Assembly: GCF_020042345.1 (NCBI RefSeq)
Contig: NZ_CP083387.1
Coordinates: forward strand, 1,116,001 to 1,180,000
Direction of reading: 5' to 3'
DNA: 64,000 nt
From: Arachidicoccus terrestris
GTDB lineage: Bacteria; Bacteroidota; Bacteroidia; Chitinophagales; Chitinophagaceae
Position numbers and translations under genes: made by a program. Positions 876 to 62,445 of this stretch are shown here, piece after piece (the stretch's first letter is position 1; each line of letters starts with the position of its first letter). The notes under the pieces are model-generated. The model was not told the origin of the DNA. It worked only from the letters and a program-made list of their open reading frames with translations, and ran no database searches.

Positions 876-2318
876 ATGTCTGCAAACTTTTTACACGGAA
901 CGGAAACGATCGAAGTTAGCAACGGCGACGTTGTTGTTTCGGAAGTAAAAACCGCCGTCATTGGACTAGTAGGGGTCGCTCCCAAAGGGCCATCAAATAC
1001 CCTTCAATTGATCCGTAGCACTACAGATGCTGCAATATTCGGGGACCCAATCCCAGGGTTCAGCATTCCGCAGGCCCTTGCGGCGATCTTTGCCCACGGT
1101 ACCGGGACTATCTTGGTGGTGAATGTCTTTGATGATGCAAAACACACAGAAGCCGTAGTAGACGAAGCGCAGACTGTCACAAATGGCGCACTTAAGCTTG
1201 CGTCGGCGCCCATTGACCTGGCAGCCGTGACCCTCAAAGATGATGCTGGCGAAGCATCAACATACATTGCGGGTACTGACTATACATTAGATCAATATGG
1301 CCGATTTATAGTTATAAAGGGTAGAATTCCAAACGATACGGTTATTAAGTTTTCGTACTCCAAACTTAAAGCTCTATCTGTATTAAGTACTGACATAATA
1401 GGGACTGTGTCTGAAACAGGTGTGCGTACAGGTATGAAGCTTTGGGATCTTGCTTTCAATAGCTTTGGTTTTAAGCCGAAAATTCTTATCGCACCCAACT
1501 ACAGTTCAACGCCAGCCGTTTCCACTGCAATGTTAACCAATGCTATAGGACTTCGTGCAGTGGCCTTGATTGATTCTGTCGCCGGTGAGACTGTCCCAGA
1601 TGCATTAACCAATCGGGTTGGAGCCGCTGACAGTTCTTTCAATACCGCCGATAAGCGTGCAGTGTTGCTATATCCTTTCCTAAAAGCCTACGACGCTTCC
1701 AAAGATGATGGCGATCCGAACACCGATACAAACACAAACTACCCATTTTCCCAATTTTACGCCGGATTAATGGCCGCTACAGACCGCGATTTAGGGTATT
1801 GGTATAGCCCATCTAACCAGTTGCTTAAGGGAATCACTGGTATTGAAAGGGAGTTATCAGCAAGCCTGAATGATGAAAATTGCGATACTAATACGCTAAA
1901 TGCAGCCGGTATTACAACTGTCTTTAATTCATTTGGAACCGGATTTCTGGCATGGGGTAACCGAAACGCTTCTTTCCCATCCAATACCCAGCCTGATAGC
2001 TTTATCAGTATGCGTCGTATAGCCGATGTGGTCCATGAAAGTTTGGAATTGGCTTCCCTACCCTTCATTGATAAGCCATTAAATCAGGCTATCATTGACG
2101 AGATCCGAAATAGCGGAAACAATTTCATGAATGTACTGATTGGAAGGGGTGCGATTTTGGAAGGATCAAAGATCACATTTAACCGGGATCAGAATCCCCC
2201 TGCGGATCTTGCAGCCGGTAAAGTGAAATTTTCGATCAATTTCATGGGTGCAGTTCCAACCGAACAAATTACGTTCCTGTCTACGATCGACACGTCTTTA
2301 TATTCCGTATTGAAGTAA
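876..2318 (+). CDS. Contractile tail sheath protein
   Basis: A 480-residue tail sheath subunit of the Mu L / P2 FI type, which forms the contracting outer tube of a myovirus tail. Family-like features are the early segment VKTAVIGLVGVAPKGP (about residues 25-40), a central variable insertion, and a C-terminal domain ending in an EQITFL strand (near residue 470) of the kind that links neighbouring sheath subunits. Its length is normal for the family. The position between a terminator-like protein and the tube gene matches Mu. ATG start at 876 after an AT-rich spacer with no clear Shine-Dalgarno site. Confidence 0.9.
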   Translation: MSANFLHGTETIEVSNGDVVVSEVKTAVIGLVGVAPKGPSNTLQLIRSTTDAAIFGDPIPGFSIPQALAAIFAHGTGTILVVNVFDDAKHTEAVVDEAQTVTNGALKLASAPIDLAAVTLKDDAGEASTYIAGTDYTLDQYGRFIVIKGRIPNDTVIKFSYSKLKALSVLSTDIIGTVSETGVRTGMKLWDLAFNSFGFKPKILIAPNYSSTPAVSTAMLTNAIGLRAVALIDSVAGETVPDALTNRVGAADSSFNTADKRAVLLYPFLKAYDASKDDGDPNTDTNTNYPFSQFYAGLMAATDRDLGYWYSPSNQLLKGITGIERELSASLNDENCDTNTLNAAGITTVFNSFGTGFLAWGNRNASFPSNTQPDSFISMRRIADVVHESLELASLPFIDKPLNQAIIDEIRNSGNNFMNVLIGRGAILEGSKITFNRDQNPPADLAAGKVKFSINFMGAVPTEQITFLSTIDTSLYSVLK

Positions 2319-59526: not shown

Positions 59527-59719
59527 AAAATTATAATAATTGTGCGTGAACCTCTTTTCCCGAAATTAACCGATTTTTACCGAACTGCCACACACCTGAA
59601 TAGTGGTTCTCTCATCAATAAAACATTGTATTTTTAATGGCGGGTCAACCTTTTTCAATACTTTATAAGACAACTTTTTGCGTTGATCCCAAGTTCAGGG
59701 CGAAAGGACGGTCTGTGGT

Positions 59720-59762
59720 AAAAAAAAATCCTGATACCGATGATTTATCAATACCAGGATTT
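59720..59762 (-). terminator. Terminator of tRNA-like RNA copy 1
   Basis: On the minus strand AAATCCTG (59762-59755) pairs with CAGGATTT (59733-59726), and the T-run continues to 59720. It lies 11 bases after the end of the tRNA-like core. Confidence 0.85.
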
Positions 59763-59772
59763 AACGACGATG

Positions 59773-59935
59773 CTGTAGGGGTAGGAGTCGAACCTACACG
59801 GGGCAGTTGGCTTAGGTACAAAATCCGGTGGTCAACCCCGGTCTCCCTTGCGGAAGGCTCTATACCAAGTTTATCCTGTGATCCCCCACCCCCGAGACGA
59901 GAGGGCATGTCTGCCAAAAGTTTCATCACCCCACA
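59773..59935 (-). ncRNA. tRNA-like RNA with giant variable arm, copy 1
   Basis: A 163-nt core. Acceptor TGTGGGG (59935-59929) pairs with CCCTACA (59780-59774), 7 bp with one G-T. After TG come a 3-bp D-stem ATG/CAT with a 14-base loop containing GG, and an anticodon-type arm CCCTC/GGGGG with loop TCGTCTC. A long insert then occupies the variable region, and the T-arm is GTAGG-TTCGACT-CCTAC. The loop triplet is GTC, but position 33 is C. The variable region (about 90 nt) is itself structured (CCTTCCGCAAGG hairpin, CCGG stem, CTTGGTA-type stem). Transcript would run from about 59988 to 59720. Not a known family to me. Confidence 0.75.
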
Positions 59936-59988
59936 ATGTTTAAGATCTTCCGAAAGTTCCTTATGTTTTAACCAGGTTTCTTTCGTTG
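59936..59988 (-). other. Leader hairpin of tRNA-like RNA copy 1
   Basis: Between promoter and acceptor stem, about 50 nt include CGAAAG and CTTTCG that can form a 6-bp stem. In copy 2 the first arm is CGAGAG, which keeps pairing by a G-U. This supports a conserved fold in the leader. Confidence 0.6.
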
Positions 59989-59994
59989 ACAAGG

Positions 59995-60002
59995 CAAAGA
60001 TA
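59995..60002 (-). promoter_or_regulatory. Bacteroidota -7 box of tRNA-like RNA copy 1
   Basis: TATCTTTG on the minus strand, an exact TAnnTTTG match, 60 bases before the tRNA-like core. The same box stands in the same place before copy 2. No TTG -33 box was found for this copy. Confidence 0.75.
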
Positions 60003-60305
60003 AAGAAATAGCCTTTTCTTTTATTATTTTCTAAATAATATTTATAAAATATAGAATTTAATCAATAAAATATAAATTTTAATAGATTTTATTAATTTAC
60101 CTATCTATATATGCCACTTCTTTAGAGAATATCTAAGATCATACTGAAAGCGTGGGTCACCTGTTTGTTCTTGTGGATCCGTGATTGGATTTTCCATCCA
60201 TCGGGTTTTCCTGTAAATATTTGATTAAAAATAGCATAACGAATGTTCACTCGGCAAATAAGGAGAATAATTGCGCTAACTTTGCGGCCTTAAAACAGAT
60301 CTGTC
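60003..60305. other. AT-rich gap before the MFS gene
   Basis: The left half is extremely AT-rich (60030-60110), just upstream of the copy 1 promoter, like an UP element or a nucleoid-protein site. No frame is convincing. The MFS promoter is at its right end. Confidence 0.45.
60277..60284 (+). promoter_or_regulatory. Bacteroidota -7 box for the MFS gene
   Basis: TAACTTTG matches TAnnTTTG, 22 bases before ATG 60306. Confidence 0.65.
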
Positions 60306-61523
60306 ATGTCTTTTCTTAATGGCTCCGGCGCCTTCAACACTTCTCTAAAACTGAAAATAGCCAGTTATGTGCTGTTTACTTTTTTTGGATACCTGTGTAT
60401 CGGATTGCCATTAGCTATCCTGCCCATCTTCATTACCAAGACCCTGGGCTATTCTACCATCATGGCGGGTATCGTTATCAGTCTGCAATACGTTGCGACT
60501 TTTTTAACCAGAGGCTGGTCGGGAACACTGATCGATAAATACGGTCCGCGTCTGTCGGTGTATATCAGCATGAGCTGCCTTGCATTAAGCGGGGTTTTAC
60601 TGTACCTTACCTATCTTTCCCGCTCCCAGGCTTTTCTAAGCCTGCTTATATTGATTATCGCCAGATTGATCACCGGTTGTGGCGAAGGCTTTATCGGCGC
60701 CTCTCCTATCACTTGGGCCATGCTGGTTGCAGGAGAAAAACAGACTGCGACCATCATTTCCTATAATGGTATTGCGTCCTATGGAGGTCTGGCTTTGGGA
60801 GCTACCCTGGGCGTATATCTAAACCAGCATATCGGGATGTATGCCATTGCATTTTTAACCTTATTAATGGGTGCGTTAGGTTATTTCCTGGCCGCGAGGA
60901 GACCTAACGTCATTGCACCGGCCTCTGACCAGACCACCGCCAATCCAACTTCCTTTCTGACGGTGCTTATCAAAGTAGCGCCGTATGGCATCTGCCTGAT
61001 GCTGGCCGGCTTGGGCTTTGGCACCATTTCCAACTTCATTACACTTTATTATGACCATTTCCACTGGGATCATGCCGCACTCTGTCTGACAGTTTTCAGT
61101 GTCTTATTTATCGTGGGCAGGATGTTCTTCTCGAACGCCATTAACGATTACGGCGGCGTTAAAGTTGCAATGGCCTGTCTGGCCTGTGAAACCATTGGTT
61201 TGCTTGTATTGGCCTTATTTCAGCAACCTTATTTTGCCCTGGCAGGAGCAGCCATTACCGGCTTTGGTTTCTCACTTATGTTCCCTTCATTGGGCGTAGA
61301 GGCGGTCAAATTGTTTTCATCTGATCGTAGCGGAGCCGCCATCGCAGCCTACGGATTATTTATTGATATCTCTCTTGGGATAACCGGCCCGCTGATTGGA
61401 GGTCTGATTGAGTCCTTCGGCATCGAATATATGTTCAGCTTTACAACAGTAATCGTATTTGCGGGCCTTATTGTTTGTTCTTCCCTCAATAGAAAAATAG
61501 TCAGGCAACTGGCCACCAGATAG
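60306..61523 (+). CDS. MFS transporter (YhhS-like)
   Basis: A 405-residue major facilitator protein with 12 predicted helices. The first-half loop 'GWSGTLIDKYGPRLSVY' is the MFS loop 2-3 motif (G-x-x-x-D-x-x-G-x-R), 'GCGEGFIGASPITW' marks helix 5, and 'FSLMFPSLGVEAVKLF' fits the UPF0226/YhhS group. Substrate unknown; some relatives export toxic compounds. It lies exactly between two direct copies of the tRNA-like RNA gene and has its own promoter. Confidence 0.85.
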   Translation: MSFLNGSGAFNTSLKLKIASYVLFTFFGYLCIGLPLAILPIFITKTLGYSTIMAGIVISLQYVATFLTRGWSGTLIDKYGPRLSVYISMSCLALSGVLLYLTYLSRSQAFLSLLILIIARLITGCGEGFIGASPITWAMLVAGEKQTATIISYNGIASYGGLALGATLGVYLNQHIGMYAIAFLTLLMGALGYFLAARRPNVIAPASDQTTANPTSFLTVLIKVAPYGICLMLAGLGFGTISNFITLYYDHFHWDHAALCLTVFSVLFIVGRMFFSNAINDYGGVKVAMACLACETIGLLVLALFQQPYFALAGAAITGFGFSLMFPSLGVEAVKLFSSDRSGAAIAAYGLFIDISLGITGPLIGGLIESFGIEYMFSFTTVIVFAGLIVCSSLNRKIVRQLATR

Positions 61524-61563
61524 ATGCGTGAATATCGCCACCCGGAAGGATCAGGTAATTGAA

Positions 61564-61610
61564 CAAAAACAAAAAGGAACAATTGGATAAGATAATCCGC
61601 CTGTTCCTTT
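61564..61610 (-). terminator. Terminator of tRNA-like RNA copy 2
   Basis: On the minus strand AAAGGAACA (61610-61602) pairs with TGTTCCTTT (61581-61573), with an inner GGAT/ATCC stem, and is followed by a T-rich tract to 61564. Its sequence differs wholly from the terminator of copy 1, so only the function is kept. Confidence 0.88.
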
Positions 61611-61626
61611 ATAGTTTTAAAGCTGG

Positions 61627-61788
61627 CTGTAGGGGTAGGAGTCGAACCTACACGGGGCAGTTGGCTTAGGTACAAAATCCGGTGGTCAACCCCGGTCTCC
61701 CTTGCGGAAGGCTCTATACCAAGTTTATCCTGTGATCCCCACCCTCGAGACGAGAGGGCATGTCTGCCAAAAGTTTCATCACCCCACA
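61627..61788 (-). ncRNA. tRNA-like RNA with giant variable arm, copy 2
   Basis: A 162-nt core with the same outline as copy 1: acceptor 61788-61782 with 61634-61628, D-stem 61779-61777/61762-61760, D-loop with GG, anticodon-type stem CCCTC (61758-61754) with GAGGG (61746-61742) and loop TCGTCTC. The variable region is 61741-61652, with base stem GGGG/CCCC. The T-stem is GTAGG/CCTAC and the T-loop TTCGACT. The discriminator G (61627) is followed by CCA in the DNA; copy 1 has CA there. Differences between copies keep pairing (U-A versus U-G in the anticodon stem). Own promoter and terminator. Confidence 0.75.
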
Positions 61789-61841
61789 ATGTTTAAGATC
61801 TTCCGAAAGTCCCTTGTGGTTTTACCAGGTTTCTCTCGTTG
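61789..61841 (-). other. Leader hairpin of tRNA-like RNA copy 2
   Basis: CGAGAG and CTTTCG pair with one G-U, and an inner TGGT-AAA-ACCA hairpin may form. In copy 1 the outer stem is CGAAAG/CTTTCG, a change that keeps pairing. Confidence 0.6.
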
Positions 61842-61847
61842 ACAAGG

Positions 61848-61878
61848 CAAAGATAAAACATTGGCCGATTTCTTTCAA
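61848..61878 (-). promoter_or_regulatory. Promoter of tRNA-like RNA copy 2
   Basis: On the minus strand, TTG (61878-61876), 20 bases, then TATCTTTG (61855-61848). It is divergent from the Lrp gene promoter at 61930. Confidence 0.7.
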
Positions 61879-61962: not shown

Positions 61963-62445
61963 ATGAGTCATAAATTAAATTTAGACAAATTGGACTATCA
62001 GATCATACAGGTCATGATGGAAAATGCAGAAATTTCCTATGCAGATCTGGGAAAAAAGCTATTTGTGTCTGGTGGCACTATTCATGTAAGGATAAAGAAG
62101 CTTCAGGAATATGGTATAGTCACCGGATCCAGACTCAATATCAATACCAAGGCCCTTGGTTTTGATGTGATCACTTTTGTCGGGATTTATCTGGAAAAAA
62201 GCTCTATGTATGAAGATGTCGCTAAGGAGCTTAAAAAAATCCCGGAAATTGTCCGGCTTAATTATACAACCGGTACGTACAGCATGTTTGCAGAGATCAT
62301 TTGCAAGGACATCCAGCAGTTAAAGCATGTCCTGCATGATGAATTACAAAACATAAAAGGTATAGAGCGCACAGAAACGCTTATTTCTCTGGAAGAGAGC
62401 TTTAGTCGCAATGTGCTGGTGTTGGATGAAGAAGAGATTAACTAA
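61963..62445 (+). CDS. Lrp/AsnC-family regulator
   Basis: A 160-residue regulator with N-terminal HTH (LDKLDYQIIQVMMENAEIS, then ADLGKKLFVSGGTIHVRIKKL) and a C-terminal RAM ligand-binding domain (residues about 68-145, 'VITFVGIYLEKSSMYEDVAK', 'RLNYTTGTYSMFAEI'). It probably senses an amino acid. Targets may include its own promoter and, since divergent, RNA copy 2. Single gene, 53 bases before the DUF2157 gene. Confidence 0.92.
   Translation: MSHKLNLDKLDYQIIQVMMENAEISYADLGKKLFVSGGTIHVRIKKLQEYGIVTGSRLNINTKALGFDVITFVGIYLEKSSMYEDVAKELKKIPEIVRLNYTTGTYSMFAEIICKDIQQLKHVLHDELQNIKGIERTETLISLEESFSRNVLVLDEEEIN

Follow-up and report, generated by a model that had tools for sequence, protein, structure and literature searches.

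A stretch of 64,000 nucleotides from the genome of Arachidicoccus terrestris (contig NZ_CP083387.1, positions 1,116,001 to 1,180,000; hereinafter the window) encodes two minus-strand RNAs that resemble class II tRNAs with a greatly enlarged variable arm, and raises the question of what a tRNA-like RNA of this form might do in the cell. We found that these RNAs belong to a conserved, covarying family, which is present in several orders of Bacteroidota and in phage contigs. As judged from their bases and genomic associations, they are probably non-decoding tRNA-like RNAs that would be aspartylated by the aspartyl-tRNA synthetase (AspRS) and then amidated by the amidotransferase GatCAB to asparaginyl-RNA (Asn-RNA), under control of an AsnC-type regulator. 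We favor this asparagine-related interpretation because three lines of evidence converge on it, namely the identity bases of the RNA, its co-occurrence with GatB and the AsnC-like gene in its neighborhood.

A conserved and covarying family of tRNA-like RNAs

The initial annotation of the window had described two near-identical RNAs with an acceptor stem of 7 bp, GG in the D-arm, an anticodon-type stem of 5 bp that closes a 7-base loop, TTCGACT in the T-arm and, between the anticodon-type arm and the T-arm, a region of about 90 nt with hairpins of its own; it had further suggested that the RNA is under selection and may represent a new class. These points were upheld in the present analysis. 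The two copies are 97% identical and are recovered by a covariance model trained on the family of the window (R1), whose match coordinates for both span base -1 through C74. The acceptor stem and the D- and T-arm motifs are present in both copies, and the region preceding the T-arm measures 90 nt in copy 2. Two-sided changes in homologs (CCCGC/GCGGG, CCGCC/GGCGG) indicate that the anticodon-type stem is a true stem. Exactly two copies were found in the window genome (4.9 Mb, single contig), both of them in the window.

Searches with Rfam 15 recovered no match to either copy at the gathering score, RF00005 and RF00023 included, and up to E = 10 no relevant one, the sole hit over the copies being a weak miRNA match on the opposite strand; ARAGORN likewise called no tRNA at either copy. 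The possibility of a tmRNA variant was dropped, as the genome carries a separate tmRNA gene (C1:3810858-3811236) and RF00023 is unmatched; its 47 tRNA matches also lie elsewhere. The folding energy of the RNA is unremarkable (z -0.98), and among the matches listed from the open-licence PMC literature no title or abstract start describes such an RNA. This lack of a relevant Rfam match, together with covarying homologs, supports the proposal of a selected and possibly new class of RNA.

DNA searches recovered the RNA in all 6 genomes of the genus and, at E <= 0.01, in 205 of 294 genomes of the same family, with many matches extending from acceptor end to acceptor end. R1, whose matches lean towards the family on which it was trained, had matches in 137 of 198 genomes of the order and 153 of 395 genomes of the class, ordinary tRNA matches included. 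Matches of 72-90 nt with at most 58 bits were set aside as ordinary tRNAs, and class genomes were scored as RNA-positive given a match of at least 60 bits and at least 108 nt; a true match by this definition is present in 68 of the 395. A pattern scan of named genomes found at least 120 loci, and every title among the 80 listed is from Bacteroidota; judging by their genera, we take them to represent the orders Chitinophagales, Sphingobacteriales, Cytophagales and Saprospirales, with a few labelled Flavobacteriales. The closest copy among these listed loci is from Terrimonas (L142, 83.5%).

Covariation was assessed on an alignment of 43 distinct sequences (A2), from which the near-identical L010, L014, L024-L026, L028, L029, L031 and L035 had been excluded beforehand, along with L011, L046:201-395 and L062:200-390 (from 46 loci) and four short paralogs. 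The covariation score of 0.287 exceeds those of shuffled alignments (0.145) and of slid structures (0.053-0.085), and 96.8% of the cells of the 42-pair structure are paired, as against 89.5% in shuffles. By a weaker measure, two-sided changes occur in 15 of the 42 pairs versus 12.2 in shuffles, with 10 of 500 shuffles reaching 15. The acceptor, variable-arm and T stems covary, as does the anticodon-type stem in a wider set, and the D-stem is invariant throughout A2; all four tRNA-type arms (acceptor, D, anticodon and T) are present with the loop sizes of tRNAs. In its long form the variable arm has a 4-bp basal stem (GRRG/CYYC) extended by 3 bp, followed by a conserved internal loop (GGATAAAC / GCTAAC), a stem of 11 pairs and inner hairpins. 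Across the family the arm ranges from roughly 40 to 125 nt, and whole RNAs from 109 to 201 nt; the long arm of the window copies is one form of a length-variable arm. Paralogs with a much shorter arm exist in the same genomes, as do tandem arrays. Arrays with at least three RNA copies were seen at L191, L540, L541, L542, L536 and L044, with long and short forms alternating in L541. At L096, two truncated 3'-half repeats (976-1043 and 1294-1361, minus strand) each have a T-arm interrupted by an inserted stretch.

The family extends to phages: at least 120 IMG/VR stretches match the scan pattern, and all 80 loci listed were confirmed by R1 (a further 46 weaker matches were ordinary tRNAs or belonged to a second phage RNA family, and were left out). 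At least five tRNA or tmRNA genes occur in 18 of 60 scanned phage loci, with a tmRNA in 7 of the 60. At 24 of the 80 listed loci, proteins of one cluster are encoded near the RNA; the member of this cluster that was tested is a terminase. Neither GatB nor AspRS is encoded in the available stretches of these 80 loci, and blastn against INPHARED phages and PLSDB plasmids gave no match to the RNA. The second phage RNA family (L258, L267, L270, L274, L304, L400-L479) has tRNA-like ends (TAGTCAGGTGGCGGAATTGGTAGACGC ... ACAGGTTCGAATCCTGTCCTGACTAC) and hypervariable middles. Among its 80 listed loci (at least 120 found) there are 98 exact matches to the 3' end, which was fixed by the pattern, with up to five per contig (L407); 76 of the 98 are preceded, at a distance of 72-213 nt, by a matching 5' end.

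The flanks of the two window copies (Table 1) agree with the earlier claim of a separate promoter and terminator for each: both have a promoter-like TATCTTTG element about 58 nt from the RNA and a hairpin followed by a T-run, and alignment of the two copies confirmed that the terminators are unrelated beside a kept RNA. In homologs, TTG-N17..24-TAnnnTTG occurs in the 130 nt 5' of the RNA in 44 of 88 cases, versus 2.5 expected from base shuffles, and T6 runs within 80 nt 3' of it in 52 of 88 (11.7 in base shuffles).

Table 1. Coordinates of the RNA copies, their flanking elements and the divergent regulator gene, counted from the first nucleotide of the window
Feature	Position	Strand	Remarks
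RNA copy 1, tRNA-like body, nt 1 to C74	59772..59935	-	R1 match 59936..59772, 184.5 bits
RNA copy 1, anticodon-type arm	59889..59905	-	loop TCGTCTC; G34-U35-C36 at 59898..59896; C33, U37, C38
RNA copy 1, promoter-like element TATCTTTG	59995..60002	-	also based on upstream motif counts in homologs
RNA copy 1, putative leader	59936..59994	-	sequence variable outside the genus
RNA copy 1, terminator hairpin and T-run	59719..59762	-	hairpin -18.4 kcal/mol, then T-run
RNA copy 2, tRNA-like body, nt 1 to C74	61626..61788	-	R1 match 61789..61626, 190 bits
RNA copy 2, anticodon-type arm	61742..61758	-	loop TCGTCTC; G34-U35-C36 at 61751..61749
RNA copy 2, promoter-like element TATCTTTG	61848..61855	-	same basis as the copy 1 element
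RNA copy 2, putative leader	61789..61847	-	
RNA copy 2, terminator hairpin and T-run	61571..61610	-	-15.8 kcal/mol; sequence unrelated to copy 1 terminator
AsnC-like regulator of the Lrp/AsnC family, divergent from copy 2	61963..62445	+	PF01037, 2.4e-17

An MFS transporter gene (60306-61523, plus strand) lies between the two copies, and a homolog of it also adjoins the second RNA copy in two further genomes (G001 and G002; loci L011 and L010).

Identity bases, GatB and the AsnC-like neighbor

Base counts were made on 153 distinct host RNAs pooled from A2, A3 and A5, one of which contains a masked stretch. These had been identified through similarity and R1 rather than through a loop pattern; as the pattern used to scan named genomes and IMG/VR predetermines the anticodon arm and some of the D-arm, the counts were limited to these three sets. 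U1-A72, G2-C71 and G73 are each present in all 153, in the presence of variable acceptor pairs 3-7, and a count anchored on the D-arm finds a single base between GG and A21 in 153 of 153, i.e. no nucleotide 20a. Plain pattern matching recovers the loop NNGTCTC in 136, and a hairpin caller that favors this loop gives G34 in 148, U35 in 152, C36 in 152 and C38 in 150. The E. coli (Escherichia coli) AspRS identity set consists of the GUC anticodon, G73, G2-C71, C38 and G10 (in the relevant passages of PMC6523644), with G73, G34, U35, C36 and C38 singled out as the five strong determinants in those of PMC9976931. According to the latter, Asp-tRNA-Asn owes its amidation to U1-A72, and in tRNA-Asp G1-C72 and U20a block the reaction, a rule that also appears in a part of PMC4206432. 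The bases of an AspRS substrate (G34-U35-C36, C38, G73 and G2-C71) are near-invariant in the host RNAs, and those of a GatCAB substrate (U1-A72, no U20a) are found in all of them; read in terms of these rules, the RNA combines an aspartate charging identity with the GatCAB mark, G10 alone being missing. The acceptor end of 64 distinct full-length phage copies is similar, with U1-A72 in 63, G2-C71 in 63, G73 in 64 and varying pairs 3-7 (their loop and D-arm, being set by the search pattern, were excluded from the counts).

Both parts of this combination are restricted among the 43 tRNAs examined in the window genome: GUC with C38, G2-C71 and G73 is unique to tRNA-Asp, and U1-A72 is confined to tRNA-Asn and tRNA-Gln. 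All 43 of these genes (L357-L399) encode a C after base 73, and in four (L373, L396, L398, L399), but not in the other 39, the whole CCA is encoded; as ordinary tRNA genes also encode this C, the trailing GC of the RNA is G73 followed by C74. An 8-bp acceptor like that of tRNA-Sec, in which base -1 (C or U in 143 of 153) could pair with G73, was dropped on the same ground of C74 being encoded in 43 of 43 tRNAs. Serine identity, suggested by G73 and the long arm, was dropped after the GUC, C38 and G2-C71 pattern had been counted. In L526, L527 and L529, which make up three of the five G34 exceptions, the triplet is CUC or UUC (Glu) in place of GUC; these are possibly glutamate, and hence glutamine, forms.

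Decoding requires U33 and a purine at position 37, and this combination is not kept in the family: at position 33, 104 of the host RNAs have U, 39 C, 8 G and 2 A, and both window copies carry C33; at position 37, 141 have U and only 8 a purine. A role as a missing decoding tRNA was also rejected, as the anticodons of 43 of the 47 tRNAs, two tRNA-Asp included, seem on visual inspection to span the codon table (the remaining four were taken as repeats). In the AspRS of the window genome, F occupies the position of H in the RRDHGG motif of the Pseudomonas aeruginosa Asp/Asn enzyme, and E. coli and Thermus thermophilus have L there; we presume that this site bears on discrimination by AspRS, and the F is suggestive only.

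The second line of evidence is the distribution of GatB, by which alone the presence of GatCAB was scored. Among the 294 genomes of the family, 192 have both RNA and GatB, 85 neither, 9 only the RNA and 8 only GatB (p 2.4e-53, a value that ignores shared ancestry); 192 of 201 RNA-positive genomes are accordingly GatB-positive. BLAST gave matches to the RNA in three of the 8 GatB-only genomes (G041, G129, G234), and G281 was scored as having neither despite a borderline BLAST match (E 0.0098). Of the 395 class genomes, 306 have GatB_N, as do all of the RNA-positive ones (68 of 68), the latter figure resting on list reading and on the lack of overlap with 20 listed GatB negatives; the association has a one-sided Fisher p of 4e-9, which again ignores shared ancestry. 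Three genera (g34, g93, g101) each include both-positive and both-negative genomes. GatB of the window genome has the catalytic domain and a GatB_Yqey domain, and the genes around GatB, inspected in 20 genomes, offered no clue to function.

AsnRS and GlnRS each scored above cut-off in 58 of 60 family genomes tested. The misses (G060 and G096 for AsnRS; G010 and G096 for GlnRS) all lack both RNA and GatB, and all 30 tested genomes with RNA and GatB pass both cut-offs (AsnRS of G256 being read in two frames); GatCAB therefore seems dispensable for charging tRNA in these bacteria. In a published survey, AsnRS, GlnRS and GatCAB occur together in 67-68 of 547 genera, Bacteroidetes included, 18 of them without asparagine synthetase; the same paper shows that the Bdellovibrio AspRS charges tRNA-Asn for GatCAB, and reports a comparable rescue of an asparagine-auxotrophic E. 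coli strain (all from parts of PMC4206432).

The third line is the gene divergent from copy 2, whose product has AsnC as its best NCBIfam model (4.8e-48) and the regulatory protein AsnC (2cg4, 1.4e-34) as its best solved relative, with Lrp (2gqq) at only 5.9e-10. A homolog lies beside the RNA in 6 of 6 genomes of the genus. At the 80 listed named loci an AsnC-like gene is found in 54, always divergent from the RNA (54 of 54) and with a median gap of about 159 bases, suggesting that the RNA is a target of this regulator.

Weighing the asparagine interpretation

Several observations weigh against the asparagine interpretation. With regard to the bases, the AspRS determinant G10, a lesser one, is lacking (A in 122, U in 18 and G in 13 of the 153, with A10 in both window copies); the RNA has U1-A72 where tRNA-Asp has G1-C72, which aids placement of the acceptor end on AspRS (in a passage of PMC9976931); and the class II arm could hinder docking on AspRS or GatCAB. 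The regulator scores 162.9 bits, below the NCBIfam AsnC cut-off of 227, and 26 of the 80 listed named loci have no AsnC-like neighbor; in some of these the available stretch ends near the RNA, in others it does not. Of the 327 class genomes that lack a true RNA match, 238 have GatB, implying other uses of GatB there or missed RNAs. In the family, five genomes (79-93% complete) have GatB without the RNA after the BLAST check and nine have the RNA without GatB, of which seven are 63-90% complete and G082 and G192 are in 510 and 730 contigs. Finally, the link between RNA and GatB is partly one of shared ancestry: on an AsnRS tree of 40 family genomes, picked as concordant (20 with both, 20 with neither), their state requires six changes, three of these being forced by well-supported branches, so that the link represents a handful of independent events and not 294.

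Among the alternatives, a scaffold or sensor fares best, though we regard it as unlikely. Here the RNA would bind AspRS and GatCAB in the manner of a transamidosome, and hold or regulate them or report asparagine status, with no role as an asparagine source. The identity bases, the GatB link and the AsnC-like neighbor would fit equally well, and the conserved internal loop and hairpin exceed what a tRNA needs; however, the invariant G73 and C74 point to a chargeable CCA end, for which a scaffold has no need. Less probable still is a regulatory small RNA whose tRNA-like ends serve processing and stability alone. The variable inner domain, the short forms and the other phage RNAs that combine such ends with hypervariable middles are compatible with this, but it leaves unexplained both the GatB link and the near-invariance of GUC, C38, G2-C71, U1-A72 and the missing 20a beside varying bases.

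We consider it highly improbable that the RNA is an unusual decoding tRNA-Asp with the anticodon GUC. Such a role would account for the aspartate anticodon and identity set, and phage copies often lie among tRNA genes; against it stand C33 in both window copies, the non-U33 of 49 and the non-purine 37 of 145 of the 153 host RNAs, the two ordinary tRNA-Asp genes that the window genome already has, and U1-A72, which would invite amidation and misreading. Equally implausible is an origin as a phage decoy or anti-defence RNA later kept by hosts, for despite the many R1-confirmed copies in phages, often with tRNA arrays, the RNA is spread over host genomes, where its flanks resemble promoters and terminators and an AsnC-like gene recurs divergently beside it, and is absent jointly with GatB.

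Proposed mechanism and implications

Under the asparagine interpretation, the RNA would undergo tRNA-like maturation and receive aspartate from the ordinary AspRS. GatCAB, which AsnRS and GlnRS leave without its textbook task in these bacteria, would then amidate the charged RNA to yield asparaginyl-RNA. Decoding would be prevented by the lack of U33, the non-purine base at position 37 and the large arm, and expression of the RNA would be linked to asparagine through the AsnC-like regulator encoded divergently from it. Such Asn-RNA would be a route to asparagine, which is either released or passed to an acceptor; this fate is the least certain step of the mechanism. Phage copies may keep the asparagine supply up. 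A more specific form of the proposal, which we put forward only tentatively, is that AspRS, GatCAB and the RNA together constitute an RNA-dependent asparagine synthetase under AsnC control, in which the RNA is a reusable cofactor and asparagine is released, phages of Bacteroidota carrying the RNA for their own protein synthesis.

This scheme is reminiscent of tRNA-dependent asparagine synthesis, in which a non-discriminating AspRS (ND-AspRS) and GatCAB act on tRNA-Asn, and which has been proposed in bacteria with AsnRS and GlnRS, some Bacteroidetes included (in a part of PMC4206432). The proposed route shares with it the order of AspRS followed by GatCAB and the U1-A72 mark. However, that route uses the decoding tRNA-Asn as carrier and depends on a non-discriminating AspRS, whereas here a separate RNA bears the aspartate anticodon and looks unfit to decode. 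With class II tRNAs (RF00005) the RNA has in common the four arms, GG in the D-loop, the TTCGA T-loop and an encoded C74, but it differs in its structured variable arm of about 40-125 nt and in having no conserved U33 or purine 37. Like tmRNA (RF00023) it combines tRNA-like ends with an added structured part, but it is shorter and has full D and anticodon arms. Non-decoding tRNAs of cell-wall synthesis and viral tRNA-like structures likewise use tRNA-like acceptors outside decoding, but with other amino acids and enzymes, and we know of none that is linked to GatCAB. In E. coli the asnC gene is divergent from the asparagine-forming asnA and its product responds to asparagine; the same arrangement is proposed here, with an RNA in place of an asparagine synthetase as the target.

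These observations describe a structured RNA of several Bacteroidota orders and many phages that was missed by the annotation tools tried. If the asparagine interpretation is correct, it would provide a reason why bacteria with both AsnRS and GlnRS retain GatCAB, a question raised in a part of PMC4206432, and the RNA would be a dedicated carrier for the making of an amino acid outside decoding.

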